Of a stretch of DNA of 64,000 nucleotides, positions 8,369-33,310 are shown in pieces. Below the pieces are notes generated by a model. It was not told where the DNA came from. It worked only from the letters and a program-made list of their open reading frames with translations, and ran no database searches. This DNA is from Fibrobacter sp. (GTDB lineage: Bacteria > Fibrobacterota > Fibrobacteria > Fibrobacterales > Fibrobacteraceae). Each line of letters begins with the position of its first letter. Within the stretch, counting starts at the first letter, position 1. Location of the stretch: assembly GCA_024398965.1 (NCBI GenBank), contig JAKSIF010000005.1, positions 62,001-126,000 on the forward strand, given 5' to 3'. The position numbers and the translations under genes were made by a program.

Positions 8369-9184
8369 TCAAACCAAGTAATGTTCGGCAATCTTTTTCA
8401 CCATGGACGAATTAAGCGGCAACGATTTGGTTTCCATTGAACAAATCAAATTATCACCAAAATAGTACCCGGCGTTTTGGTAATGACGAAGTCTTTCGAT
8501 AGCCTTGCAGGCATATTCCTCCTGCCCCATCATACCAAGATGTTCCCATATATATTCCTTCCCGGTTCGTTTGTTCAAGCATGTAAAATCAGGATGCACG
8601 GTTCCCATCCCGCGAATTTTCAGCGGTTGTTCGTAACGAAAGGGAATTTTCATATAAGACAACGTATCGGCAATCATCATTTCCGACTTGGACCGAACGA
8701 AGAATCCCATGGACGTTTGAATCTTTGCGCCATCTTCCTCAAACGGTTTCCTCTCGTATTCAACATTTTGCCATCGTTCCGCAAAATCCGAAAGGCCAAG
8801 CCTAAACGGATTGACTACATCTCTACGCCCTTCCAGGAGATTTTCATAAACGCCATCAAGATCAGTCTTTTCCATCTTGGCCAACAGCGCATTCAATGAG
8901 CCTCTTACTTTCGCAATTTCTGCTAACAGCTTTTCATCATACGCTTTTTGTGCCAGCCTGCAAGCATCGGTGAAATGTTTGCCATCAAGATACGTTCCGT
9001 TGGAATACTTCCCCTTCACTAAATAATAGCGAGGAAGCTTATTTGGTCCCTGTTGCATTATTCGCAATCGACCTTTGGGCGCATTTTTCACAGCCGCAAG
9101 CTTTTCTTGATACAATTCGTTCAGCATTGAAACCTGAGACTTCAGGCTATTGCAAAATTCCGCAGACAGTAAACGTTCAGCCAT
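8369..9184 (-). CDS. Conserved protein with a PD-(D/E)XK-like core
   Basis: A 271-aa protein of unknown role. Residues 10-120 are helical and charged. Residues 162-220 show the order RSKSEMMIADTL, a central FRYEQPL, HPDFTCL and YIWEHLGM, which fits a restriction-endonuclease-like fold with E168, D199 and E214 as metal ligands. The C-terminal part (RHYQNAGYY, then MVKKIAEHYL) completes a family I know only as uncharacterised. The start at 9182-9184 has a GAAGGAGA ribosome site, while the longer frame to 9250 lacks one. The upstream side holds the first TAGGACTAA array. Nuclease activity is an inference from motif order; the last motif lacks the usual Lys. Confidence 0.7.
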   Translation of the reverse strand: MAERLLSAEFCNSLKSQVSMLNELYQEKLAAVKNAPKGRLRIMQQGPNKLPRYYLVKGKYSNGTYLDGKHFTDACRLAQKAYDEKLLAEIAKVRGSLNALLAKMEKTDLDGVYENLLEGRRDVVNPFRLGLSDFAERWQNVEYERKPFEEDGAKIQTSMGFFVRSKSEMMIADTLSYMKIPFRYEQPLKIRGMGTVHPDFTCLNKRTGKEYIWEHLGMMGQEEYACKAIERLRHYQNAGYYFGDNLICSMETKSLPLNSSMVKKIAEHYLV

Positions 9185-9347
9185 AGATAATCTCCTTCTA
9201 AGTAAACAACAAGATAAACCAATCGCAGGCAATATCTCAAATTCCAACATTTCGAACTAGGATTTCGCACAAATTGCATCATTTTGCAATCAGTTGTTTA
9301 CATGGAATTGGCTAGGCAACCCCATTTGAGCGATTCGCCTTTGTTTT

Positions 9348-9646
9348 TAGGACTATTTTGGGGAGAATGTTCAATTAGTCCTAGTAAAATTGCGGTTTAC
9401 GACGCTGCCATAGGACTAATTTTTCCCACAACACCTTTTAGTACTAGCATTTCGCATAAATCGCCCCTCAAAGGAGCTTTTTCATAGGACTAAATCTCAC
9501 GCCCCCGCGCTCTAGTCCTAAGCCCCAGCGAAAAAAAGCGCAAAACGTAGGACTAATTACAAACACCGCAAACATTAGTCCTAGCGCATCCGTAGCACAA
9601 GTAAAAAAAATAGGACTAATAACCGACACTTCGATTATTAGTCCTA
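9348..9646. repeat. Helically spaced array of five inverted TAGGACTAA / TTAGTCCTA pairs (array P)
   Basis: This fills most of the 555-bp stretch between the nuclease-like gene and lspA. Forward half-sites start at 9348, 9411, 9485, 9548 and 9611. Reverse half-sites start at 9375, 9438, 9512, 9575 and 9638. Every forward-reverse pair is offset by exactly 27 bp with an 18-bp spacer of unrelated sequence. Pair-to-pair distances are 63, 74, 63 and 63 bp, near 6, 7, 6 and 6 turns of B-DNA. Seven of ten half-sites are perfect; the others have one change (9348 site last base, 9438 site TTAGTACTA, 9512 site CTAGTCCTA). The spacers do not match each other, unlike ordinary tandem repeats. No open reading frame of note is present. 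A binding site array for an unidentified protein is the simplest reading. Confidence 0.9.
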
Positions 9647-12034: not shown

Positions 12035-12241
12035 TTATCAACAATCCCCAAAGCGGGGCAAATTGCCCTTTTTAGACCAAAAACACCAATTTTCAACAAA
12101 CTCGCTTTTGCAACCCGTTGAATATCAAATAGTTACGAACAATGTAAACTTTTATTTTACACAATCTTTTGCACCTTTTGGGCAAAACTTATCAACAGTC
12201 TCTCGTAAATTTGTTACATTTGATAACCTAATTGTTGATAG
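12035..12241. promoter_or_regulatory. Cluster of DnaA-box-like sites upstream of dnaA
   Basis: TTATCAACA occurs at 12035-12043 and 12189-12197. A reverse-strand relative TGTTGATAG is at 12233-12241 and ATTTGATAA at 12219-12227. They differ from the classic TTATCCACA by the same central base. The surrounding sequence is AT-rich. This is a plausible dnaA autoregulatory region or part of an origin; the sequence does not decide between them. Confidence 0.5.
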
Positions 12242-12265: not shown

Positions 12266-13591
12266 ATGCAAGTTGAATGGGAAAGATGTTTGAACTACCT
12301 CCGCGGAATGCTCTCCGACACGGTTTACAAGACCTATTTCGCTCAGACCAAGTTGACAAACCTTACAACAGGTCACGCCATCGTTACCATTCCCGCCGGC
12401 CTAGACACCGCTGTCTACTCCGCCTATAAGGAACTGATTCGCCTCGGCTGGAAAGAAGCCACCCACGACGAATCCCCCATCGAGTTCGAGTTCCAGCAGC
12501 AGGAATCTATCCCGCAGCCCATGGTGAATTCCCAGAACACCTTCAAGGACTTTATCAAGCCCAGCGTTCCCCTGTCCGGCAGTTTCCGCTTCGAGAACTT
12601 CGTGCCCGGCGACAAGGCCCAGCTGGCATTCAACGCAGCCCTCGCTGTAGCCCGCAATCCCGACGGCACCCAGTACAACCCGCTGTTCATCTACGGTTCC
12701 AGCGGCTTGGGCAAGACCCACCTGCTGCAGGCCATCGGTAACTACATCCTGGAAGAAGACCCCGCCAAGCGCGTGTGCTACCTGACTTCCGAAGACTTTT
12801 CCCAGCAGTACATGAAGTGCCTGCGTGAACAGCGCATCACCGAAATGTCCGACTTCTACCGTAACGAAGTAGACATCCTGCTGATCGACGATATCCAGAA
12901 CTGGACCGGCAAGTACGAAACCCAGAACGAATTCTTCCTGATTTTCAACGCACTGCACCAGGCCGGCAAGCAGATCGTGCTTACCTCCGACGCACCCGCC
13001 GCCGAAGTCAAGAACCTTTCCGACCGCTTGGTGAGCCGTTTCGCATGGGGCCTTACGGTAGACATCCAGCCGCCCGACGTAGAAACCCGCGAAGCTATTC
13101 TCCACAAGAAGGCCGAAGAACGTCACCTTGAAATCAGTGACGAAGTTCTGCATTATCTTGCCGAAAGCATCGCAAGTAACGTCCGTTGCCTGGAAAGCGC
13201 CATCATCAAGCTCACGCTTCAGTCCAGCTTGCTGAACCACGATATCGACATGAGCATTGCACAGAAGGTTGTGGCCGAAATCGCCCCGACGCTCCGCCGC
13301 CGCGTAAGCCTCGACGCAGTGCTCCATACCGTCTCCAAGCACTACGAAGTGCCCGAAGCAAAGCTTATCGAATCCGGACGCGGTACCAAGGAAATTTCCA
13401 AGGCACGCCAGGTCGCCATGTTCCTGATGCGCGAATGCTCCCCCATCAGCCTCCAGAGCATCGGCTCCCGCTTCGGCGGTAAGGACCACTCTACCGTAGT
13501 TCACGCCATCAAGAGCGTGAAGAAGGAAATGGAAACCGACCCCAGCTTCGCCCGCTTAATCGAAAGCCTTAAGAACAGCATTCATGATTAA
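12266..13591 (+). CDS. dnaA: Chromosomal replication initiator protein DnaA
   Basis: A 441-aa AAA+ ATPase that binds DnaA boxes and opens the origin. Domain I spans residues 1-75, with a short linker at about 80-105. The AAA+ core begins FRFENFVPGDKAQLAFNAAL. Walker A is YGSSGLGKTHLL (K150), Walker B is ILLIDDIQ near 204-211 and the sensor region is IVLTSDAPAAEV. Domain IV ends with the helix-turn-helix signature FGGKDHSTVVHAIKSV, which contacts the DnaA box. The linker is shorter than in E. coli. The gene is transcribed away from the lspA operon and is followed by array Q rather than by dnaN, so the common dnaA-dnaN-recF order is absent here. Confidence 0.97.
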   Translation: MQVEWERCLNYLRGMLSDTVYKTYFAQTKLTNLTTGHAIVTIPAGLDTAVYSAYKELIRLGWKEATHDESPIEFEFQQQESIPQPMVNSQNTFKDFIKPSVPLSGSFRFENFVPGDKAQLAFNAALAVARNPDGTQYNPLFIYGSSGLGKTHLLQAIGNYILEEDPAKRVCYLTSEDFSQQYMKCLREQRITEMSDFYRNEVDILLIDDIQNWTGKYETQNEFFLIFNALHQAGKQIVLTSDAPAAEVKNLSDRLVSRFAWGLTVDIQPPDVETREAILHKKAEERHLEISDEVLHYLAESIASNVRCLESAIIKLTLQSSLLNHDIDMSIAQKVVAEIAPTLRRRVSLDAVLHTVSKHYEVPEAKLIESGRGTKEISKARQVAMFLMRECSPISLQSIGSRFGGKDHSTVVHAIKSVKKEMETDPSFARLIESLKNSIHD

Positions 13592-13634: not shown

Positions 13635-13921
13635 TAGGACTAAAAGGATGATGTACGCCTTTTAGTCCTACTTTTTTATACAAAGTAACGCGTTTTTGGG
13701 GTGTTTTCTGGGGAAAATTAGGACTAATCTTCGGGGTGGTGGTTTTTAGTCCTAGATTTTTCAGACAAAGTAACAAAAATTGCTGTAAATTTCTTAAAAA
13801 TCTAGGACTAATCTGCGTGGGCACAACTTTTAGTCCTACACACAGCGAATACAACAGCCCAAAATTACCCGGTGGGTACAAAAAATAGGACTAAACCCGT
13901 CGTTGCGAGGTTTTAGTCCTA
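13635..13921. repeat. Second helically spaced array of four inverted TAGGACTAA / TTAGTCCTA pairs (array Q)
   Basis: This occupies the 396-bp convergent gap between dnaA and the MORN-like gene. Forward half-sites start at 13635, 13719, 13803 and 13886. Reverse half-sites start at 13662, 13746, 13830 and 13913. All eight are perfect 9-mers and all pairs are again offset by exactly 27 bp. Pairs are 84, 84 and 83 bp apart, close to 8 helical turns. Two units also share ACAAAGTAAC just after the pair (13680 and 13765), so this array probably grew by duplication. No promoter-like arrangement is expected in a convergent gap, which argues against simple transcriptional control. Confidence 0.92.
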
Positions 13922-13987: not shown

Positions 13988-15664
13988 CTACTTTTTCTTT
14001 TTGCTTTTCTTGTCGGCTTTGGCCTTACCTTTAGCCTTGGCTGATTTTTCCGAGCCAGCCTTAGGGGCGGCGGTATTGTCTGCGGAGGCGGCATTATCTG
14101 CAGTGGCGCTATTGCCTGCAGCGGCGGCATTGCCAACAGCTGCACCATCTCCGGCAGCCTTGGCAGAATCTGCTGCAACAGCAGCCTTCTCGGCGGCAAC
14201 AGCCTCTTCCTCGGCCTTGGCGGCGGTCTCCTCGGCGCGCTTCAGATCTTGCTGGGCAACAGCAAGAATTTCCTGAGCCTTCTTGACTTCGGCCTTAGCC
14301 TTCTCGGACTTTTCGCGGGCAACACGCGCAATCTCGTGGGGGTCGCGGGCAATGGAATCCAGCACCGGGTCGGGGCAGTTCATATCAAGGCCGCCCTTGC
14401 TGCCGTTATAGCATTCCATCTTACCCTGGAATACGCCCATCTTGTAGGCGCCCCACTGGCGCTTCTTGACTCGTTCCGTATAGCAGAGAGTTGCGCCGGG
14501 CATCCAGTCGTAGCAGGTATCCTGAACAGACCAGAAGGTCACCACGCCGTTAGGCAGGCCCTCGTGGAACACGCCACCGAACTCGCCGAAGTCCACAAAG
14601 CCTTCAAGCTTGCCGGCAGCAAAAGTCAGGTTCACATTCTTCTTCTTGAACGGGTTGTGAATCACGGTACGGCCGTGGAGACCGCCGCGCTTTACAGAGA
14701 ACTCGGCCATCAAGAAGCCCTTGTCGCTGAACATCTTGACGTTACCATCCACATAACCCTGCTTGTAAGGCACTTCGAGATGCTTAAAGTAGTACGTGGA
14801 ATTATTAACTCCATCATAAACACTGGACTTGTAGAAAGTCGAAACACCTTCGCGCATACCGTTCTTATAGTTAGATGTCCACAGCACCTGGCCCCACTTC
14901 TTGTCTTGGCGGGTCGGGTACGTGGGGTCGTTCATGTAGCCGATTTCCTCGCCGCTCAGCAAGCCCTGTGCGTCCACATGTCGCACGTTCTCCTTGTAGC
15001 CGTTAAAAGCAAAGCCCGTCAGCTCGCCACCGTCGAGGCAGCGCACGTCGCTATAGTCCGTAAAGCGGCCCATGGCCTCGGGAATCAGCTTCTTCGGCAG
15101 GCCCGAAACGCTGAACACGCCAGAACTATTACGTTCCCCCGCCGGATCCGCATCCGGGCGGCCGTGCACGTTCAAGAAGCAAGTGATATCGCGGGCGCGA
15201 TCCGCACGCTTGTTAAAGTATTCGCCAAAGGGAGTCATCTCCCAGCCTTCGTCAAAGCCAAGAGGTACAACGCCGGCCATAGGGTGGCCGTCTACAAAGT
15301 CAGACAAGGCAAAGCTGGTCTGCCGCACATTGTCCATGCACTGCTGCAGGGCGTTTCCGTTATCGCAGGAACCGTCGGCGCAAGAAATCAGGCGGGGCTT
15401 GGGCAGTTCGTACACGCGGGTAATCTGCTTGGGCTCGTCGTTACCGCGCCAGCCAAAGCCGCCCTTCTCGCGAACCTTGAAACATCCACAAACAGCATCG
15501 CTGTCGATCTTGGCCCCAATGCGGGCACGTTCCGCAGGCACAATGCTTGCAGCCTTCTCAAGCCAGCAGTCAAAGTACTCGAAATGGTTCACATCCTGGG
15601 CCATGGCCTGGCCGCCCAACACGGCGCCAAAAACCAGCACAGCAAGACTCTTTGCAAACTTCAT
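13988..15664 (-). CDS. Exported protein with MORN/YwqK-like repeats and Ala/Lys-rich coiled tail
   Basis: A 558-aa protein. MKFAKSLAVLVFGAVLGGQA, followed by AMA-QD, is a clear signal peptide and fixes the start at 15662-15664; the longer frame would run into galE. The middle contains repeated Gly-rich strands such as GYVDGNVKMFSDKGFLMAEF, NYKNGMREGVSTFYK and GEFGGVFHEGLPNGVVTFW, which resemble MORN-type or YwqK-type repeats. Many cysteines sit in the first half. From about residue 445 the chain becomes a charged coiled coil, then an Ala/Asp/Asn-rich linker and a terminal lysine cluster ending KKSKKKK. The role is unknown; a periplasmic or surface structural protein is possible. Its start is 5 bp past the galE stop. 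Confidence 0.72.
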   Translation of the reverse strand: MKFAKSLAVLVFGAVLGGQAMAQDVNHFEYFDCWLEKAASIVPAERARIGAKIDSDAVCGCFKVREKGGFGWRGNDEPKQITRVYELPKPRLISCADGSCDNGNALQQCMDNVRQTSFALSDFVDGHPMAGVVPLGFDEGWEMTPFGEYFNKRADRARDITCFLNVHGRPDADPAGERNSSGVFSVSGLPKKLIPEAMGRFTDYSDVRCLDGGELTGFAFNGYKENVRHVDAQGLLSGEEIGYMNDPTYPTRQDKKWGQVLWTSNYKNGMREGVSTFYKSSVYDGVNNSTYYFKHLEVPYKQGYVDGNVKMFSDKGFLMAEFSVKRGGLHGRTVIHNPFKKKNVNLTFAAGKLEGFVDFGEFGGVFHEGLPNGVVTFWSVQDTCYDWMPGATLCYTERVKKRQWGAYKMGVFQGKMECYNGSKGGLDMNCPDPVLDSIARDPHEIARVAREKSEKAKAEVKKAQEILAVAQQDLKRAEETAAKAEEEAVAAEKAAVAADSAKAAGDGAAVGNAAAAGNSATADNAASADNTAAPKAGSEKSAKAKGKAKADKKSKKKK

Positions 15665-15669
15665 AAAAC

Positions 15670-16686
15670 CTATCCCTCGTAACCCTTGGGGTTGTTCTTC
15701 TGCCAGTTCCAGGAATCGCGGCACATCTCCTCGATACCGTACTTGGCTTCCCAGCCCAGCTCGGCCTTGGCCTTGGCAGGGTCGCAATAGCAGGTAGCAA
15801 TGTCACCCGGGCGGCGGGGCTTAATGCTGTAGGGCACCTTTACGCCGTTCACCTTCTCGAAGGCATGCACAACGTCGAGCACGCTATAACCGTGGCCCGT
15901 ACCCAGGTTGTACACGGCAAGGCCGCACTTACGCTCGATAGCCTGCAGCGCGCACACGTGGCCGGCAGCCAAGTCGCACACATGAATATAGTCGCGAACG
16001 CCCGTTCCATCGGGAGTATCGTAGTCGTTGCCGAACACGCCCAGCTCCTTGCGCATGCCCACCGCAGTCTGGGTAATGTAGGGCATCAGGTTGTTGGGAA
16101 TGCCGTTGGGATTTTCGCCAATGCGGCCGCTCTGGTGAGCACCGATGGGGTTAAAGTAGCGCAGCAGCACCACGTTCCATTCCGGGTCGGCCTTCTGCAC
16201 ATCGCTCAACACCTCTTCAAGCATAGACTTGGTCTTGCCGTAAGGATTGGTGCACTCGCCCTTGGGGCAAGCCTCGGTAATGGGAATCACAGCCGGATTG
16301 CCGTACACCGTTGCAGAAGAAGAGAAAATAATGTTCTTGCAGCCGTTCTTGCGCATGGTATCCACCAGCACGAAGGTGGCGTTCATGTTGTTCTCGTAGT
16401 ATTCCAGGGGCTTTGCAACAGACTCGCCCACAGCCTTGAGACCAGCAAAGTGAATGCAGGCGTCGATCTTGTATTGCTTAAACACCTTGTCCATGGCCTC
16501 GGCGTCGCGCACGTCGGCCTTTACAAAAGGAACCGGCTTGCCGATAATCTCGGAAACACGGCGGAGAGATTCCTGGCTGGAGTTCACCAAGTTGTCCACC
16601 ACCACAACGGAATGGCCGGCCTTGTCCAGCTCAATGATCGTATGGCTACCAATGTAGCCCGCACCACCGCACAAAAGAATCTGCAT
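15670..16686 (-). CDS. galE: UDP-glucose 4-epimerase
   Basis: A 338-aa short-chain dehydrogenase/reductase that interconverts UDP-glucose and UDP-galactose, and often the N-acetyl forms. The NAD-binding GGAGYIGSHT is at residues 6-15. The catalytic Ser lies in SSSATVYG near 122-129 and the Tyr-Lys pair in YGKTK near 148. The C-terminal substrate region RRPGDIATCYCDP is typical. It supplies galactose-type sugars to the adjacent glycan region. Full length; start at 16684-16686. A terminator of the upstream dehydratase gene lies just before it. Confidence 0.95.
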   Translation of the reverse strand: MQILLCGGAGYIGSHTIIELDKAGHSVVVVDNLVNSSQESLRRVSEIIGKPVPFVKADVRDAEAMDKVFKQYKIDACIHFAGLKAVGESVAKPLEYYENNMNATFVLVDTMRKNGCKNIIFSSSATVYGNPAVIPITEACPKGECTNPYGKTKSMLEEVLSDVQKADPEWNVVLLRYFNPIGAHQSGRIGENPNGIPNNLMPYITQTAVGMRKELGVFGNDYDTPDGTGVRDYIHVCDLAAGHVCALQAIERKCGLAVYNLGTGHGYSVLDVVHAFEKVNGVKVPYSIKPRRPGDIATCYCDPAKAKAELGWEAKYGIEEMCRDSWNWQKNNPKGYEG

Positions 16687-25532: not shown

Positions 25533-26636
25533 TCACATTTTCTCCATGTCATCAGCCATCTTAAGGCGTTTTGGAATGTAAAAAACAAAGCCTACAACCA
25601 TGAAAAAAAGCTGCCACGCAACTTCTACAAAATCAAAGGAGAGCATTTTCAAGAGGCGAACCTTGTTACGCAACCACCAAACAAAGACAGACCGGCCTCT
25701 CCTATCGAAATGACGTTCAAAGTCGCCCGAAGCAAACGCCTCGTCTAAAAGAGCGCGGCCACGACGTTCATCCGGAGGGCACACAAAATATTCCGGTTCC
25801 AAGCCCAACATTTCATGAAGAGCCCACATCAGGGCCCCTGCGGTATGTTTCAAGCCCAAGTCGGCAAGATGGTTACCAAATTCAGAACGTTCAGCCTTTG
25901 TAGACGACTTAAGCAAAAAGAAATAGTCCACAAGCTGCCGCAAGCCTATTCCCAAGGTTAGAAAATGCCTTTGAATGTGGGAAAGCTGCATCGCCATAGC
26001 AAACGTCATTGTCGGAACATTAAAGCGCCCTTCTTTTAAGGTCGTTTCGCAAGAAGGAACATGCACGAGCTCCCCTTCCAGGAATTTCTGCAACCGCCGA
26101 TTGGAAAAGGGATTCCTGTTGCCAGAGCAAGCCTTAAAATGAATTTCCACTGGCACCAAGAAGTGTTTGGGCGCAAGCTGTGCATCATGTTCCCCGACCG
26201 TCATGCCATCTTGCAGGCCAAGTTTTTTTATCAGTTCAAGAGTTTCTTCTCGGGATCCATCTATCCAGATATCGACATCACTAGACTGCCTAAGTTCTGG
26301 GTCAGGATACAGAACACCATTTGCACAACCCTTCAGGATAACGCTGCGGCGCCCCTGCTCCGCAAAAAGCCTTGTCAACTCCGATGAAATTTCAGACATT
26401 TTCTTGCCAAGGCCGCGGATACGTTCCGTTTCAAAAGACCATCGAAAGACCAATTCCATTGGCGGCCTTAAATCCGCGGGCAATCGTTCCACCCCGGAAT
26501 AAAAAATCCCCAGCATCGATTGCTTTACAGCAAAATCAAACAACTCCAGCCATTCAGCCGGGGAAAGTTTATCCTGAACATCTGGGATAAGCTTCAAGCT
26601 AAATTGAAGAAAGTTGTTGATTTTTTTATTAATCAT
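25533..26636 (-). CDS. Nucleotidyltransferase family protein (NTP_transf_5 type)
   Basis: A 367-aa protein of the uncharacterised nucleotidyltransferase family often found beside PqqD, HPr-kinase-like and exopolysaccharide genes. The core reads SVILKGCANGVLYPDPELRQ, then SSDVDIWIDG, the Ser-x-Asp-x-Asp metal site of nucleotidyltransferases. PVEIHFKACSG is a third acidic strand. The C-terminal half is helical (MAMQLSHIQRHFLTLGIGLR), typical of the family, and ends with a hydrophobic segment (FVEVAWQLFFMVVGFVFY). The ATG at 26634-26636 is preferred over a TTG at 26651. In some lasso clusters such genes accompany the kinase and extend phosphorylation. Confidence 0.82.
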   Translation of the reverse strand: MINKKINNFLQFSLKLIPDVQDKLSPAEWLELFDFAVKQSMLGIFYSGVERLPADLRPPMELVFRWSFETERIRGLGKKMSEISSELTRLFAEQGRRSVILKGCANGVLYPDPELRQSSDVDIWIDGSREETLELIKKLGLQDGMTVGEHDAQLAPKHFLVPVEIHFKACSGNRNPFSNRRLQKFLEGELVHVPSCETTLKEGRFNVPTMTFAMAMQLSHIQRHFLTLGIGLRQLVDYFFLLKSSTKAERSEFGNHLADLGLKHTAGALMWALHEMLGLEPEYFVCPPDERRGRALLDEAFASGDFERHFDRRGRSVFVWWLRNKVRLLKMLSFDFVEVAWQLFFMVVGFVFYIPKRLKMADDMEKM

Positions 26637-26673
26637 GATCGTTTTTTTCAAATTAAATCAAAAAAAAATTAAG

Positions 26674-28080
26674 CTAAAGCTTCCGACGATTTTTTATTCG
26701 ACAAATAATATTTTTCAAATAATGCCGATGAACAAAAAGAAAAGTCATGTATACAAGCAAATACAGCAAAAATCCACTAAAGCCGTCAATAAACCATGTT
26801 GAACAAACAAAGCAAGCAATCATAAACGATTCTATAATCAAACCTTTTACAAATGACAGTTGCATTTTCTTAGAAAGGAAAAACTCACCCAACGATGTTC
26901 GAAACGCAAATATTATCAAAATAGCAAAAACCGCATAAGTCAAATTCTCCAAGAGGAATATGCTCGTCCATGTCAAAACGGCGCTCAACACAAGAGTTAA
27001 AAGATTCGTAAAAAAGATCTTTTTTTCCATTCTAAGTGTTTTTAAGTACGTTTCAACAAGCATACTGAGTTTTCCTTCATAAAAGCATATAGGGAACAGT
27101 ATCGCCATATATTTCAAACAATCGGCATAACTTGGCAACCAGTATGTCAAAAAGACATACAGGGGATAATAGGCAAATAAGATCCCAAACGTGAAAAGCA
27201 TCAGTCCCACTTTCATTTCACGATAAATTTCCGAATACTTTGATTCATCAATTCTCCGCAAAGTAGGAAGTAAAACCATAGATACAGAACGGATAAACAC
27301 CATAACAAGATTAGAGATTGTCAAGGTTAGAGATATTTTACCAAAAGTAGACACATCCCATTTACGTTCTATAGACCAACGAACCAGTCCTAAAATAAGT
27401 AGACTCGCAATATTTGCAAACATCAGTTTTGATCCAACGCAAATATTTTCATAAACCTCTTTTAAGACCTTCTTTGAAACAGAAATCTTTAGTGAAATTT
27501 GATCTCGACATTGAAAGATTCCATAACACATGGAAACAAACTTTCCAAACAAATCCGCAGCTATAACAAGGGCAAAACTATCTAAGCCAACAAACACAAT
27601 TAGCAACGAACCAAAACCAAAACAAGCTCGTTCAATCATAATCAGGAAAGAATATTCCTTGATTCGATTAGTCGCTTGCAGCACATATTGCAAAAAAGTT
27701 TTGGGCATTAAAAAAAGAATGCATAAACCTATTAAGGTAAATACAACCGTTTTCTCTGTCGTGGGGGCAAATTTCAAAGCGCAAATGCAGAATAAGATGC
27801 TAAAGGCACTTTCAAAAAGACAGAATATCCCAAACTGGGACTGAAAAAGTTTTTTATCTAACGACTCGTAATAAGCGCCACCATACCGCAGATATATTCC
27901 ATCAGCCCAACCAAAATGCAGAAAACCAGTATAGTTGATATAAAAAAGGTATAACTGAAAGAAACCGTAATTTTCTACGCCTAAGGCCTTTGGAACAAAA
28001 AAGGCAACAAACACAGAAACCAGCAAACAAACAATGTTGGACAGAAACGTGTAAGATATGTTTTTAAGGACAGAAGGCAT
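26674..28080 (-). CDS. wzx: Oligosaccharide flippase (Wzx/MATE-like)
   Basis: A 468-aa polytopic protein with about 12-14 membrane helices and a polysaccharide-biosynthesis N-terminus (NISYTFLSNIVCLLVSVFVA, then FFVPKALGVENYGFFQLY). It would flip lipid-linked repeat units across the inner membrane. It is 10 bp downstream of the Wzy-like gene. The run of genes from here to 31.3 kb is clearly more AT-rich than its flanks, with many Lys/Asn/Ile codons, suggesting horizontal acquisition of this glycan cassette. Confidence 0.85.
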   Translation of the reverse strand: MPSVLKNISYTFLSNIVCLLVSVFVAFFVPKALGVENYGFFQLYLFYINYTGFLHFGWADGIYLRYGGAYYESLDKKLFQSQFGIFCLFESAFSILFCICALKFAPTTEKTVVFTLIGLCILFLMPKTFLQYVLQATNRIKEYSFLIMIERACFGFGSLLIVFVGLDSFALVIAADLFGKFVSMCYGIFQCRDQISLKISVSKKVLKEVYENICVGSKLMFANIASLLILGLVRWSIERKWDVSTFGKISLTLTISNLVMVFIRSVSMVLLPTLRRIDESKYSEIYREMKVGLMLFTFGILFAYYPLYVFLTYWLPSYADCLKYMAILFPICFYEGKLSMLVETYLKTLRMEKKIFFTNLLTLVLSAVLTWTSIFLLENLTYAVFAILIIFAFRTSLGEFFLSKKMQLSFVKGLIIESFMIACFVCSTWFIDGFSGFLLYLLVYMTFLFVHRHYLKNIICRIKNRRKL

Positions 28081-28090
28081 AATCTAGCAG

Positions 28091-29305
28091 CTATCTCTCT
28101 TTTACTAACAACACAGGACTAGTTAAAGCAAGTACGAAAATAAAACGTTGAAGCCATAATGAAAAACGAGAAAAGAAAATATCATCAAAAAAGAAATAAG
28201 CAATGGGAGTCATCATAACCGAAAGCAGAACAACAAAAAAAATTTCTTTTGTTTCTACAACCTTTTTGTACATAAACCCATAAAATATACCCATAACAAA
28301 AAATACAAAATACACCCACATCATGCCAAAATCTCGAAAAACCCAACCAACCGCAGTATACACATTCGATTTAGCACCATTCAAATACAGAAACGGAGAA
28401 ATCGTTTCAACAACTTCAACATCAGGAAACAGCGAAGACAACACCGCGCAAATAAATCTAAATGTGTACTTTCCATAACCAAATTCTTGAATATTATCAA
28501 ACAAATACAAGAAATTCAAAGTTGGATTGATGAAATAACTAGAAAAAAGATATTGAAGTTTTTCAAAATCACTCAAATGAGCATACGTTGTTGCAAACTT
28601 ATCAAGCGATGAATATCCCCATATAAAAAACATCAAAACCAACATCACCGTTGAAAATACTAGTATTTTCTTATTAGACACTTCTTTTACAAATACATAG
28701 ATGTAAACCAATGCTATTAACAGTAAAAACCACCCACCTCTAGAAGAGAATAATAAAATCGACATGGTCGGCGGCAACATAAATAAAATATTGTTGCGAT
28801 TTTCAGAAGAGGGATTATAGGTAAAAATTCCAACAGATACCATAAAAATTATGGGAATCAGGTTCAAAAAAATCACGGAAATTCCACTTTCAAACAAGTC
28901 ATTTTCATTCATGCAATAAATCATAGTCTGCCAAATTGAGGCGGAACGCACATTTAATTCGCTCCAACATTTGGCAATAGTTATTGCAGAAAACACATAC
29001 ATTGAAATAATTAGCGGAATCCTTATAATTGGATTCCACGCATATTTCTGACATCTCCAAAAACTTGTAGAAAAACGATTATATGTAAAAAATTTAAACC
29101 CAACGAAAAAAGAAACGAAACATATGAAAAACAAACCCATTCGCCAATCATCAGAAAAAGACAACGGCATAAAAATCAAAACAAAAATGTACTGCATAAG
29201 CCAAATACCACCAGCCAATACTAATGGACTAGCAAGATTTCTGACTATTTTGAAATCCAAAAAAAGGAACAACAAAATTCCTATTACGCAGGCTAAAGAA
29301 ATCAT
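28091..29305 (-). CDS. wzy: O-antigen polymerase-like protein (Wzy type)
   Basis: A 404-aa membrane protein with about 11 hydrophobic segments and no strong enzyme motif, the usual picture for Wzy polymerases that join repeat units at the periplasmic face. A larger polar loop around residues 240-290 (EFGYGKYTFRFICAVLSSLF) resembles the oligosaccharide repeat unit polymerase family. It is AT-rich like its neighbours. Its start overlaps the preceding gene by ATGA, and the flippase follows 10 bp later. Confidence 0.75.
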   Translation of the reverse strand: MISLACVIGILLFLFLDFKIVRNLASPLVLAGGIWLMQYIFVLIFMPLSFSDDWRMGLFFICFVSFFVGFKFFTYNRFSTSFWRCQKYAWNPIIRIPLIISMYVFSAITIAKCWSELNVRSASIWQTMIYCMNENDLFESGISVIFLNLIPIIFMVSVGIFTYNPSSENRNNILFMLPPTMSILLFSSRGGWFLLLIALVYIYVFVKEVSNKKILVFSTVMLVLMFFIWGYSSLDKFATTYAHLSDFEKLQYLFSSYFINPTLNFLYLFDNIQEFGYGKYTFRFICAVLSSLFPDVEVVETISPFLYLNGAKSNVYTAVGWVFRDFGMMWVYFVFFVMGIFYGFMYKKVVETKEIFFVVLLSVMMTPIAYFFFDDIFFSRFSLWLQRFIFVLALTSPVLLVKER

Positions 29306-30213
29306 TTATCTTCTAAAAAATTTTTAAGCCAGCTTGCAAAATCATATTGTTCAATAAACATATCAGAACTATGATCATAGGGAGATAAGACAAAATCTTT
29401 CAAATCTTTCAGTTCTCTTTTTCCTAAAATAAATACATTATTCTCATTGTAAAACGATTCATTCGCGGCGCTTTCATTGTTTGTAATCAATTTTTTTTGT
29501 AGAAAAAGGGATTCCATCTGGCGAGCAGTCGCCCCAACTTGTCCAGGACGAACAACTTCAAGCAAAGCTTTACTTTTAACATTTTGTTCAAGTAATTCGT
29601 TGTAATCAACCGATTTTGATTTTAAAGATTCAGGAATTCCTTGATGCAGGGGATATACAATTCTGAACAAGCATCTAAGTCCCATCTTTGTAAATTCATT
29701 GTACAACGACACCAGTGTTTCGCCTCTACCGGAATCACTACCACAGAAAAAAACGTCTTGTTCTGTTTCTTTTGTATTTTTCACCAATGTTTTAAAGTAA
29801 TATTGGTGATTAAATTTCATTCCATACTTTAAACAATCATTTGGATCAAACGACCAAAATTCACAATTTCCCTTCACTTTTTTGGGGTTAGTAGAAGAAT
29901 TAACTATATTCCAATACCACGCAATCACTTTTGCTTTAGGGTTCAGTTTGTTTATATAAAGAGGCAAGTCTAGCGTCATACGAGTCATGTGGACGATAAT
30001 GACATCACTTTTTTTTGCCAATTCTACCCATTTTTTTGAATACCACACCGATACAAATGGTATATGAAATTGCATCCATAAGCGTCGTATCCCACGCAAA
30101 AATTTGTTCACTTTATAAAAAGGAAGATAGGCAGGAACGTCATATTTCGCCCATTCCGATGTGGCAAAATTGCCAATCATATTTTGAGTCAATAGTAAAA
30201 AAGTCTTTTCCAT
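29302..30213 (-). CDS. Putative glycosyltransferase of the glycan cassette
   Basis: A 303-aa protein that I can place only by context and weak signals. The central DVFFCGSDSGRGETLVSLYN resembles the nucleotide-side region of GT-B glycosyltransferases, and RQMESLFLQKKLITNN is typical of their C-terminal end. The ATG at 30211-30213 (MEKTFLLLTQNM) is preferred to the upstream start at 30252, because it lies 5 bp after the previous stop. It overlaps wzy. Confidence 0.6.
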   Translation of the reverse strand: MEKTFLLLTQNMIGNFATSEWAKYDVPAYLPFYKVNKFLRGIRRLWMQFHIPFVSVWYSKKWVELAKKSDVIIVHMTRMTLDLPLYINKLNPKAKVIAWYWNIVNSSTNPKKVKGNCEFWSFDPNDCLKYGMKFNHQYYFKTLVKNTKETEQDVFFCGSDSGRGETLVSLYNEFTKMGLRCLFRIVYPLHQGIPESLKSKSVDYNELLEQNVKSKALLEVVRPGQVGATARQMESLFLQKKLITNNESAANESFYNENNVFILGKRELKDLKDFVLSPYDHSSDMFIEQYDFASWLKNFLEDK

Positions 30214-30218
30214 ACAAT

Positions 30219-31316
30219 TCATTTCAACTTTAGGTAAAAGTTTTGCAACCATTCCGAAGTCGTTTTTATATCATATCCTTCAGTAATTATATTGTCTCGC
30301 ATATTCATTCGTTCTGAAGTTTCACACGAATCCAACATGCGATCAACCCAAACATCCATAGGAGCCTCTAAAGAAAGATATTCAATAAGATTTGACACCT
30401 TAGCCTCTCTAGGAACCCTATCTGAGCAAATCGTTTTCAATCCTGCAGCCTGAGCTTCAACAGCAACAATACCCAAACCTTCAAATAAAGAAGGGAAAAT
30501 AAACAAGTCCATGGCAGAAAGTATACTTGGGATATCGGACCGAGCCCCCGTAAAACGAACACAACCACTCAGCCCCAAAGAATCAACCTTATTCTTTAGG
30601 AAATTTTCAAGTTTTCCTACACCAACAATTATTAGTACAGAATTTGGATATTTTTGGTAAAATTTTGCAAAGACATCAATAACAAAGGATTGATTTTTTT
30701 GTTCTGTTAAACGACCTATATTTCCAACTACAAATTCTCCATCCAAAGAGAATTCCTTTCTAATTAAAGCTCTCTTTTCTTCCGAATAGATATATTGTTG
30801 AGAATCTATGGCATTTTTCAGTACAGTAAACGACGATTTTCCATAAATCCATTGTCCGGCATCTTCAGAACATGCAAATCGATAATCAGATGTTTTTGAC
30901 AAGCGATTAATAAACGGTTTACGCAACAAGGTTTTCAACGACAAAATGGGAGATTTTGTCGCATGGGAATGTCCAATACAAACCAAACCGAATTCATGAG
31001 CAACATCAAAGAATACGGATGCTATTGTAAAAAGATGCCCATGCACAACTTTGTATTCAGGGTGATCTTTGAAAAAATTTCTCCACCATTTTTTATACTT
31101 AAAAATGTTATAAATTTTAAAGTTTGGTGCAGAAAAAATGCGACCACCTAATGAAATAATTTCATCGTCATAAGCACATTTTTCACCCGTATGCTTTACA
31201 AAATCAAATTGAATCTTTGACCTATCAACATTCCTATATAGATTCATTATCATGGTTTCAGAGCCACCACGATTCAACGCTCCAAAAACTTGAAGTATTC
31301 GTATTGGACTAGTCAA
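30219..31316 (-). CDS. Glycosyltransferase family 4 protein
   Basis: A 365-aa GT-B glycosyltransferase. The N-terminal strand is RILQVFGALNRGGSETMIMN, with the GG-E acceptor loop. The C-terminal domain has VVGNIGRLTEQKNQ, VGVGKLENFLK and the donor-binding FPSLFEGLGIVAVEAQAAGL with the E-x7-E motif. The protein would transfer a sugar to the lipid-linked repeat unit in the cytoplasm. The start is a TTG complementary to 31314-31316 with AGAGGA nearby upstream; no better ATG is in frame. Confidence 0.88.
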   Translation of the reverse strand: MTSPIRILQVFGALNRGGSETMIMNLYRNVDRSKIQFDFVKHTGEKCAYDDEIISLGGRIFSAPNFKIYNIFKYKKWWRNFFKDHPEYKVVHGHLFTIASVFFDVAHEFGLVCIGHSHATKSPILSLKTLLRKPFINRLSKTSDYRFACSEDAGQWIYGKSSFTVLKNAIDSQQYIYSEEKRALIRKEFSLDGEFVVGNIGRLTEQKNQSFVIDVFAKFYQKYPNSVLIIVGVGKLENFLKNKVDSLGLSGCVRFTGARSDIPSILSAMDLFIFPSLFEGLGIVAVEAQAAGLKTICSDRVPREAKVSNLIEYLSLEAPMDVWVDRMLDSCETSERMNMRDNIITEGYDIKTTSEWLQNFYLKLK

Positions 31317-31336
31317 AATTTCATTTCCTCTTTGAC

Positions 31337-32227
31337 TTAAACACAGAAAAATCTTCCAAAGTCAAAATCAGCTTCATCCGGGGTATATTGAACGTAACCA
31401 CTCCACGGATAGAATGTCAACTCACCAAAATAAATCTTGCCAGAAATATTATACAGGTCAACACGAACAAACGGAAAATCTTCTGACAATTTTGAAGCAA
31501 TTTTAATCATTTCATCAAAATTATCTGGTTTTGGAATATCGTAATCAGCCTGAGGACAATCACTGGACACATTCAACGGATCCCAATTGGCTGTATAAAA
31601 ATTACGTTTATGGCCAATATAACGATCAACATCCACAACCAAATATTCTGGTTTTCCATTAAAGCAGAATATTTTATAGTCATTCACTCCAGCATCAGGA
31701 TTATCCGTATTAACCAAGAGTTCTTCAACAATAATTCCAGGCATCAAACCACTATAAGCCCATTCTCGGCCTAAAGTTTTTTTCACCGGATGTTTTGGCA
31801 AAATCAATTTTTGTTTAAGCAGATCATAATCAAGTGTTGATTTATCCGAGCAGACAACCACATTCATTCCCCCACCACCATGAGTTGTCTTGATAACAAA
31901 ACTCTTTGGCAATTTTTCAAAATCAATTTTATCGACAGAACTAAAGTATCCATACAAGTCAACAAGAATATTCTTCAAGCCCTTAGATTCCACAAATTGT
32001 CGAACAAGGAACTTATCAACACATTGATGCATTACCGGATTTCTATAATTCAGCTTATACCACTGCACTTTCTCAGTAAAGCGCAAAGGCTTTTTCAAAT
32101 TCAATGATCGATGTAGCTTGACACGATATTGAAACCGAAGCATCAAAGAATCAGGAATAAATTGAAGAATATTTAGAATCTTTCTGCGCAAGCTTGCGCT
32201 TTTTATCAGCTTCTTATAACCATCCAT
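31337..32227 (-). CDS. TupA-like ATP-grasp protein
   Basis: A 296-aa member of the TupA-like ATP-grasp family. FTEKVQWYKLNYRNP and VDKFLVRQFVESKGL form the N-terminal part. FVIKTTHGGGGMNVV is the ATP-binding Gly-rich loop. VDLYNISGKIYFGELTFYPWSG is the closing metal-binding strand. Relatives in polysaccharide loci are thought to ligate amino acids or similar groups to sugars, as proposed for teichuronopeptide synthesis; the substrate here is unknown. It abuts the next glycosyltransferase gene with no gap. Confidence 0.85.
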   Translation of the reverse strand: MDGYKKLIKSASLRRKILNILQFIPDSLMLRFQYRVKLHRSLNLKKPLRFTEKVQWYKLNYRNPVMHQCVDKFLVRQFVESKGLKNILVDLYGYFSSVDKIDFEKLPKSFVIKTTHGGGGMNVVVCSDKSTLDYDLLKQKLILPKHPVKKTLGREWAYSGLMPGIIVEELLVNTDNPDAGVNDYKIFCFNGKPEYLVVDVDRYIGHKRNFYTANWDPLNVSSDCPQADYDIPKPDNFDEMIKIASKLSEDFPFVRVDLYNISGKIYFGELTFYPWSGYVQYTPDEADFDFGRFFCV

Positions 32228-33310
32228 TTAACAACCAACTTCCTTCAAATACGCATCAACAACAATCTGGCGATCAAATTCCTTTTCAACCTTAAGGCGA
32301 CCGGCCTCCCCCATTTTCTTGCGGTCTTCCCATGAAAGTTGAAGGAACTTTTCAATTTTTTCAATCAAATCCTGAGAATCCCGTTGCTTTACAACAAAAC
32401 CATTCACGCCATCATCGATCACTTCTCGGCAACCACTTCGATCCGTGGTAATAATAGGCCTTGCGCATGCACTACTTTCAAGCAAAACGTTACTCAAGCC
32501 TTCCGGGTAAAAAGTCGGATGCACGGTGCAATGGCTCAATTTTTGAATTTCGCGAACATCCCGGACCATGCCATGATAGATGATAGTTCCATCCTTTACA
32601 AGATCATCCAGTTTTCCCTGGTACTCAGCCTCACAGTATCCGCAAACATGGAATTTTACGTTTTGATATTTCTTTGAAATATATTGTGCCGCTTCCAAAT
32701 ATTGATCGATACCCTTTTGGCGCATAATTCTGCTAATAAAGACGAAATTGACGTTTTCTTCACCAGGATACGGAAGTGGGGAGAAATGCTTAAGATTTAC
32801 TCCACTGCCGGGAATCAATTCACTACAGGGGCCAACGACATTATGCCTAAGCATAAAATCACGGTTTTCGGAATTCTGAAAAAAGACCTTTTGAGCCTTG
32901 CGTAAACCTGTCTTATACAAGGCGAGGGTAATCTTCTGAAGTAGGCCTCCATTTTCAACTGCAGAACCTAAGCCCGTCACATTGGCCACATAAGGCACGC
33001 CACAGATTTGACAAGCATATCCACCGTAGACATTCGGCTTTATCGTATAAGTGAATACAATATCCGGTCTAACAGACCTTATAATTGACCTATATCTAGC
33101 CAACAATTTTAAATCAGTCAACGGATTGACTCCATGCCTCGAAACAGGGGTTTCTATGAATTTGCACCCCATCTGTTCCATTTCTTTGACAAAGTCACCA
33201 TTTGGCACAGACAGGATCACTTCGTGCCCTGAAGCAAGCAAGGCGCTTAACAACTCGCCCCTAAACTTATACAATCCTGTCGGTTTATTTGCCAAAATAA
33301 GAACTTTCAT
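32228..33310 (-). CDS. Glycosyltransferase family 4 protein (PglA/WbnK-like)
   Basis: A 360-aa GT-B enzyme starting MKVLILANKPTGLYKFRGEL. It includes RPDIVFTYTIKPNVYGGYAC and VTGLGSAVENGG, features of the group that adds the second sugar to an undecaprenyl-linked amino sugar. The donor site is HPTFYPEGLSNVLLESSACA with the E-x7-E motif. Base composition is closer to the chromosome than that of the genes downstream, so it may belong to the older core of the locus. It follows the GNAT gene by 12 bp. Confidence 0.9.
   Translation of the reverse strand: MKVLILANKPTGLYKFRGELLSALLASGHEVILSVPNGDFVKEMEQMGCKFIETPVSRHGVNPLTDLKLLARYRSIIRSVRPDIVFTYTIKPNVYGGYACQICGVPYVANVTGLGSAVENGGLLQKITLALYKTGLRKAQKVFFQNSENRDFMLRHNVVGPCSELIPGSGVNLKHFSPLPYPGEENVNFVFISRIMRQKGIDQYLEAAQYISKKYQNVKFHVCGYCEAEYQGKLDDLVKDGTIIYHGMVRDVREIQKLSHCTVHPTFYPEGLSNVLLESSACARPIITTDRSGCREVIDDGVNGFVVKQRDSQDLIEKIEKFLQLSWEDRKKMGEAGRLKVEKEFDRQIVVDAYLKEVGC

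Follow-up and report, generated by a model that had tools for sequence, protein, structure and literature searches.

In the genome of a Fibrobacter species (GenBank assembly GCA_024398965.1, contig JAKSIF010000005.1, positions 62,001 to 126,000), the convergent gap after dnaA carries four evenly spaced pairs of 9-mers, and a similar array lies on the other side of the gene. The question raised by this locus is what these repeats are and which of the neighbouring genes they belong to. The first-pass annotation of the window, i.e. the whole stretch of 64,000 nucleotides that was analysed, regarded a promoter operator as a poor description of the array after dnaA (array Q) and preferred chromosome organisation, replication control, or a fork/transcription barrier. 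The features considered here are as follows.

13635 to 13670, no strand assigned: array Q element 1, TAGGACTAA-N18-TTAGTCCTA, with a 13-bp hairpin stem and then a T-run, terminator-like for dnaA.
13719 to 13754, no strand assigned: array Q element 2.
13803 to 13838, no strand assigned: array Q element 3.
13886 to 13921, no strand assigned: array Q element 4, preceded by an A-run, a terminator-like hairpin for the minus-strand gene at 13988-15787.
13677 to 13687, minus strand: secondary motif ACAAAGTAAC (reverse TTACTTTGT) between Q elements 1 and 2, present again at about 13762-13772.
9348 to 9646, no strand assigned: array P, five elements between the 3' end of lspA and the nuclease ORF, upstream of the ORF start.
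8369 to 9250, minus strand: nuclease ORF with a predicted PD-(D/E)XK domain, 293 aa from the first ATG.
9184, minus strand: probable start of the nuclease ORF, an ATG chosen by homology, giving 271 aa.
12266 to 13591, plus strand: dnaA, a neighbour only.

All eight 9-mers of array Q are exact. TAGGACTAA begins at 13635, 13719, 13803, and 13886, and TTAGTCCTA at 13662, 13746, 13830, and 13913, so that the 27-bp offset between the arms and the element spacings of 84, 84, and 83 bp hold as first described. Since TAGGACTAA and TTAGTCCTA are reverse complements, each 'pair' forms a single inverted repeat of 36 bp, of which 18 bp are spacer. Array P had been reported to contain the same pairs; its five elements do show a similar geometry, with spacings of 63, 74, 63, and 63 bp, but only two of the five have perfect arms. 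A pattern with 8-mer arms was matched 26 times in the 3.59-Mb genome (151 contigs), while the reversed-pattern control was not matched at all; therefore, the pattern of array Q is not due to chance. Elements of the TAGGACTAA type (at least 26) are spread over about ten to a dozen places in this genome, the 9-mer alone occurs 67 times, mostly within arrays, and contig C15 has an additional, degenerate array of six elements. The other arrays have spacings of 53, 63, 64, 74, 84, 95, 105, and 157 bp, and most of them adjoin unrelated genes.

With two arrays within 4 kb of dnaA and DnaA-box-like TTATCAACA sites upstream of this gene (two exact and two with one mismatch, at 12035-12241), array Q might be taken for an origin, a dnaA element, or a fork-control element bracketing dnaA. 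However, the features of an oriC are absent from array Q: the cumulative GC skew, which had been proposed as a check, declines steadily across the window and does not switch at dnaA, and no DnaA-box-like site was found in array Q when it was scanned. In addition, sixty-one genomes of the genus were searched and 30 dnaA loci were fetched, the one in the window and those of 29 relatives; only the former has an array, and the arrays elsewhere lie near unrelated genes. The comparative, skew, and DnaA-box results together remove the case for array Q acting on dnaA, although dnaA may still adjoin the origin. A role in replication control or one specific to dnaA was therefore rejected, and we consider it extremely improbable. 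A second DnaA-family gene (G000:C14:30655-31752, 31% identity to the window dnaA) was also observed in this genome, and it is present in most other genomes of the genus. The part of the window from 26000 to 33000 is low in G+C, down to 0.33 compared with about 0.5 elsewhere, and is possibly acquired DNA.

From the comparison of gene neighbourhoods, it appears that the relevant neighbour of the arrays is the nuclease gene beside array P, 4 kb from array Q, and that dnaA is a bystander. Arrays with the same arms are found in a handful of other Fibrobacter genomes; the window genome and G043 have 32-33 loose matches to the TAGGACTAA-type pattern, and G010 has 12. A Clostridiales genome from goat omasum also shows this arrangement, with TAGGACTAA or TGGGACTAA as the arms. 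The protein encoded by the window ORF has homologues that adjoin arrays in G000, G010, G043, Fibrobacter succinogenes RUG11683, and the Clostridiales genome G080, and those in G010, RUG11683, and G080 stand directly beside an array of their own genome. Most other homologues have their own array no more than about 600 bp away, and its arms differ in sequence (ACATACTAA, GGCATATAA, GGTTACTAA, TGTCACTAA, ACCCACTAA, GCAGACCAA, TACGACTAA, ACCTATACA, GTCAGCTTG, and others). By a rule requiring at least three elements and a score of at least 6, an array was detected at 52 of 80 gene loci, a set that includes orthologues and whose loci are not all independent; of the negative controls, 29 dnaA loci scored 3 or less and shuffled sequences 0. 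In a separate Clostridiales sample, at least three elements were present at 14 of 30 gene loci (two of these loci had been seen before), and a slightly looser rule was passed by one of 45 unrelated loci. About a third or more of the gene loci have no detectable array at the thresholds used.

Members of the nuclease profile were found in 59 of the 168 Fibrobacterota genomes searched, nearly all of them from the genus Fibrobacter; in the order Clostridiales, 112 of 188 genomes have members, with a maximum of 13 in one genome. Some of these matches are to the nuclease domain within larger or different proteins. One Clostridiales locus (L202) has 14 elements with arm GTCAGCTTG, spaced by 51-52 bp, on the downstream side of the nuclease gene. 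Arrays with ACATACTAA arms are present in 18 of 80 genomes of the genus, with up to 33 copies per genome and none in the control. Among the ACATACTA-bearing genomes searched, 11 of 12 have a matching nuclease homologue, 65-99% identical, and four genomes (G009, G015, G036, and G041) have neither the array nor the matching nuclease. Two further genomes (G003 and G066) have a related gene and no exact ACATACTA copies, and the arms beside their genes differ. The one exception, G042, is a near-complete genome (contig C1) with two ACATACTAA elements and no nuclease homologue found, so that its elements stand alone without a gene; elements without the ACATACTA-type gene fit gene loss and at the same time weaken strict co-occurrence. 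Overall, the arrays are very probably the cognate sites of the nuclease.

If the protein reads the arms, the part of it that does so may be recognised from covariation. The distance between N-terminal halves correlates with the distance between arms (Mantel r = 0.54; 52 loci). In partial correlations over the same loci, the N-terminal half given the C-terminal half retains 0.33, while the reverse gives 0.005. Phylogeny is only partly controlled in the Mantel comparison, so that the correlation supports, but does not prove, a reading of the arm by the N-terminal half; the arm sequence appears to track the N-terminal half and not the nuclease half. Since array P lies upstream of the nuclease gene, as arrays do at many other nuclease genes, a putative autoregulation of the gene through array P is likely.

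The assignment of the C-terminal half to the PD-(D/E)XK superfamily is based on a motif and on consistency among several matches, with no single strong match among them. The ORF gave nothing significant against Pfam, NCBIfam, and PHROGs, and no match to the PDB by sequence. Residues E168, D199, E214, and H215 are invariant in 41 homologues, within the pattern RSKSE ... HPDF ... WEHxG; E-H-x-G stands where the lysine of E-x-K would be expected, and K166 is invariant nearby. The AlphaFold2 model, built from three sequences, is of low confidence (pLDDT 69, pTM 0.50). The best-ranked PDB matches by Foldseek include the PD-(D/E)XK enzymes Bax1, R2 retrotransposon endonuclease, DrdV, MunI, and Vsr, but every match is weak and none reaches E 0.001. 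By PADLOC, the window ORF matches PDC-S68 (E 5e-26), a protein of 1200 residues, but only in its C-terminal nuclease part. Thus, the conserved acidic core and the alpha/beta fold of the superfamily are represented here by the invariant residues, the PADLOC match, and the weak fold matches.

The likeness to PDC-S68, a defence candidate, might suggest an anti-phage or anti-plasmid nuclease, for which the chromosomal arrays would be a store or a regulatory sink. However, the match is confined to the nuclease part, and the sites are in the host genome, in many copies, and specific to the species. Nine relatives on viral contigs (L212-L220) carry the nuclease domain within helicase-like proteins of about 700-1150 aa, resembling PDC-S68; these are large fusion proteins that have only the nuclease domain in common with the window ORF. 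Viral contigs searched for the element pattern contained single scattered copies and no arrays. A defence function is thus improbable.

The geometry of the elements is conserved independently of their sequence. In relatives, the arm offset is 27 or 28 bp, and an offset of 28 is accompanied by a start-to-start spacing larger by 1 bp (64, 85, and 106 compared with 63, 84, and 105). Since the spacing rises with the offset, what is kept in phase is the gap between an element's end and the beginning of the following element (17, 27, 38, 48, 59, 69 bp, and so on). Across the paralogue families, whose arm sequences differ, the offset is 26-29 bp, and more than 20 arm sequences are found under one constant geometry. 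Gaps between elements of gene-adjacent arrays are about 17, 27, 38, 48, 59, 70, 81, 100, 111, 122, 132, 143, and 154 bp. Their phasing at 10.5 bp is strong (R = 0.87, p ~6e-29; n = 85, deduplicated by arm core and gap) and it holds on distinct gap values only (0.80, p ~8e-12; n = 40). It is not an artefact of detection, since the search constrained gaps only by a minimum separation. The array geometry that the annotation had emphasised is real, helically phased, and beyond simple copying. Instead of 9-mers kept and geometry lost, the opposite was found in relatives: the 9-mers change and the geometry is kept.

Within the elements, the arms are about 95% complementary across 8 positions, beyond which complementarity drops to chance level, so that it ends after 8-9 bp; the A/T content has one peak at the inner end of the arm and another, about 10 bp away, at the centre. 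This is the signature of a DNA-protein interaction rather than of a full hairpin, and the A/T profile looks like that of bent DNA with a protein holding one face; the phased gaps imply a cooperative complex. The 36-bp units, with a conserved frame and a variable interior, could alternatively be read as an RNA-guide array, in which the variable 18-nt spacers would act as guides; the units lie beside a nuclease gene, their transcripts are able to form hairpins, and in TIGR-Tas systems arrays with a locus-specific repeat sequence likewise lie beside the gene (PMC12045711). However, TIGR proteins have a Nop domain and guides flanked by box C/D, neither of which was found here, and no Cas or Nop domain of CRISPR-Cas or TIGR-Tas, or match to another RNA-guided family, was detected in the ORF by Pfam, NCBIfam, and PADLOC. 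The spacers tend to an A/T-rich centre with a periodicity of about 10 bp, and the gaps are phased to the DNA helix, which would be needless for RNA. The guide reading was rejected for these reasons and is hardly credible.

The distribution of the arrays suggests that they move. In one genome (G018), arrays at different places are about 73-89% identical in their best-aligned pieces, and thus look like copies of one unit in which the spacers have drifted while the arms and the spacing were kept. One convergent gap is filled by an array of about 250 bp in three genomes (G018, G054, and G061), and the array is absent from the other genomes aligned; this comparison gives presence or absence at one orthologous gap, without direction, and we infer a gain rather than a loss. 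No target-site duplication is evident in this single filled/empty comparison. At the same convergent gap (L330-L351), relatives have other short repeats, e.g. GAGATTGCGTCGCCC..GGTCTCGCAATGACG and GGAGATCCCCGC..GCGGGGATGACAG, so that this gap collects several kinds of intergenic repeat. Several loci have the order array-gene-array; there the two flanking arrays, about 240-310 bp long, repeat each other directly and in most cases share 70-95% identity. Such flanks fit recombination between arrays, which would also yield solo arrays such as Q. Judged from these comparisons, the nuclease-array system is probably mobile.

Arrays may also affect transcription. In convergent gaps, the outermost element sides that are first met by transcripts have longer T-runs than other sides (p = 0.003), and several outer elements, Q elements 1 and 4 among them, fold well below shuffled sequences. 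Therefore, the outer elements probably double as terminators. Of the fork or transcription barrier that had been proposed, the effect on transcription is plausible on this evidence, whereas the role in replication found no support; the judgement that a promoter operator poorly describes array Q stands. Arrays with TAGGACTAA arms are in convergent gaps in 16 of 26 cases, compared with 40 of 157 background gaps (the background includes the array gaps), and those with ACATACTAA arms in 7 of 20. Strict targeting of convergent gaps, which holds for the former and is weak for the latter, was therefore rejected. A secondary motif, CAAA[GC]TAA (reverse TTACTTTG), resembles a TAnnTTTG promoter box and occurs in several arm families, as well as at L169, L180, L190, L191, L243-L246, and L251-L261. 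Its distance from an element is often 6-7, 11, or about 20 bp, and it is about 2.3-fold enriched in arrays; as for its reading as a common promoter, it is enriched near arrays and its position is not constant.

The longer T-runs and the excess of TAGGACTAA arrays in convergent gaps over the background of about a quarter, together with the arrays upstream of many nuclease genes, as in autoregulation, and the cooperative complex implied by the phased gaps, would agree with a domesticated regulator, i.e. a protein that no longer cuts and whose arrays are kept by the host as operators, nucleoid anchors, or bidirectional terminators. Yet the catalytic residues are invariant in the 41 homologues, the positions of arrays vary between species (none of the 29 relatives has one at dnaA), and the ACATACTAA arrays show little of the convergent preference. 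The arms also vary freely among paralogues, and some of the genes are flanked on both sides by arrays in direct repeat. Domestication is therefore unlikely, though less so than the other alternatives.

In the explanation that we prefer, and hold to be probable from the sequence comparisons, array Q is a solo, gene-less array of putative cognate sites for the nuclease encoded at 8369-9250 on the minus strand, and part of a mobile nuclease-array system. The system would have two parts: the nuclease gene with the array beside it, and additional arrays of these sites dispersed through intergenic DNA. One arm of 8-9 bp would be recognised by the protein's N-terminal half, and two subunits would sit as a dimer on the inverted arms, 13-14 bp either side of the dyad. 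The PD-(D/E)XK domains would thereby be placed over the variable spacer of 18-19 bp, which is often A/T-rich at its centre, and may cut there. Whether the nuclease does cleave DNA we regard as a real possibility, slightly short of even. As neighbouring elements are on the same face of the helix, occupied elements would come together in a single larger complex. Where a break in one array is repaired from another, arrays would spread and could carry the gene with them, giving the array-gene-array order with direct repeats, and recombination between these repeats would leave solo arrays such as Q. A nuclease that cuts several chromosomal arrays should be toxic unless it is controlled.

Among known systems, the nearest arrangement is that of REPIN-RAYT, in which paired inverted short motifs with a spacer lie beside an enzyme gene and are dispersed as non-autonomous extragenic copies, and in which enzyme and repeat co-diversify (PMC3116915). 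As in that system, inverted pairs are dispersed extragenically here, with a cluster beside the enzyme gene. However, RAYT/TnpAREP belongs to the HuH/Y1 enzymes, and its substrates are single-stranded hairpins that carry a GTAG motif (PMC8266576), whereas the enzyme here is PD-(D/E)XK-like, the Pfam scan of the ORF gave no Y1 transposase match, the more than 20 arm sequences share no common GTAG, the arms are not full hairpins, and the elements are phased on the double helix.

Ends of Tn7-like transposons also consist of arrays of short binding sites that flank genes and are conserved with the protein (PMC8649781). Those are inverted-repeat arrays bound by TnsB, whereas the flanking arrays here are direct repeats and the sites are also dispersed as solo arrays. 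TnsA of Tn7-like transposons is likewise PD-(D/E)XK-like; in the loci read, neither TnsB nor TnsC was recognised beside the nuclease gene. Homing endonucleases are similar in that a gene is associated with its own target sites and may spread by break and repair. Unlike in those systems, the gene does not interrupt its target here: there are still arrays on one or both of its flanks and in many gene-free places, and there is no intron or intein. The direct-repeat flanks are compatible with copying of the gene into a cut recipient site. FokI/TALEN-like designs resemble the present elements in having two inverted sites around an unspecific spacer of TALEN-like length and a PD-(D/E)XK domain, but here there would be a natural, single, small protein with tandem phased sites and putative cleavage.

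No description of such a nuclease-array system was found in the full-text literature searched, which covers few subscription journals. A family that crosses phyla, with one repeat sequence per nuclease and one strict geometry, is thus apparently undescribed. There is about an even chance that Fibrobacter and Clostridiales harbour an undescribed class of mobile system, in which a small PD-(D/E)XK nuclease homes between phased arrays of its own sites, its recognition sequence being rewritten in each lineage while the geometry is fixed. For the annotation of such genomes, neighbouring genes alone are poor ground for calling arrays of this kind origin or operator sequences. If the explanation is true, the system would be an unrelated counterpart to REPIN-RAYT and to transposon ends, and would account for a class of puzzling phased repeats in gut and rumen genomes. 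It would also provide a natural nuclease with half-sites of 8-9 bp and a spacer of about 18 bp, a compact enzyme for which the array next to the gene would directly give the target sequence. Since at least 20 natural protein/target pairs are visible, the DNA-recognition code of the N-terminal half is directly testable.
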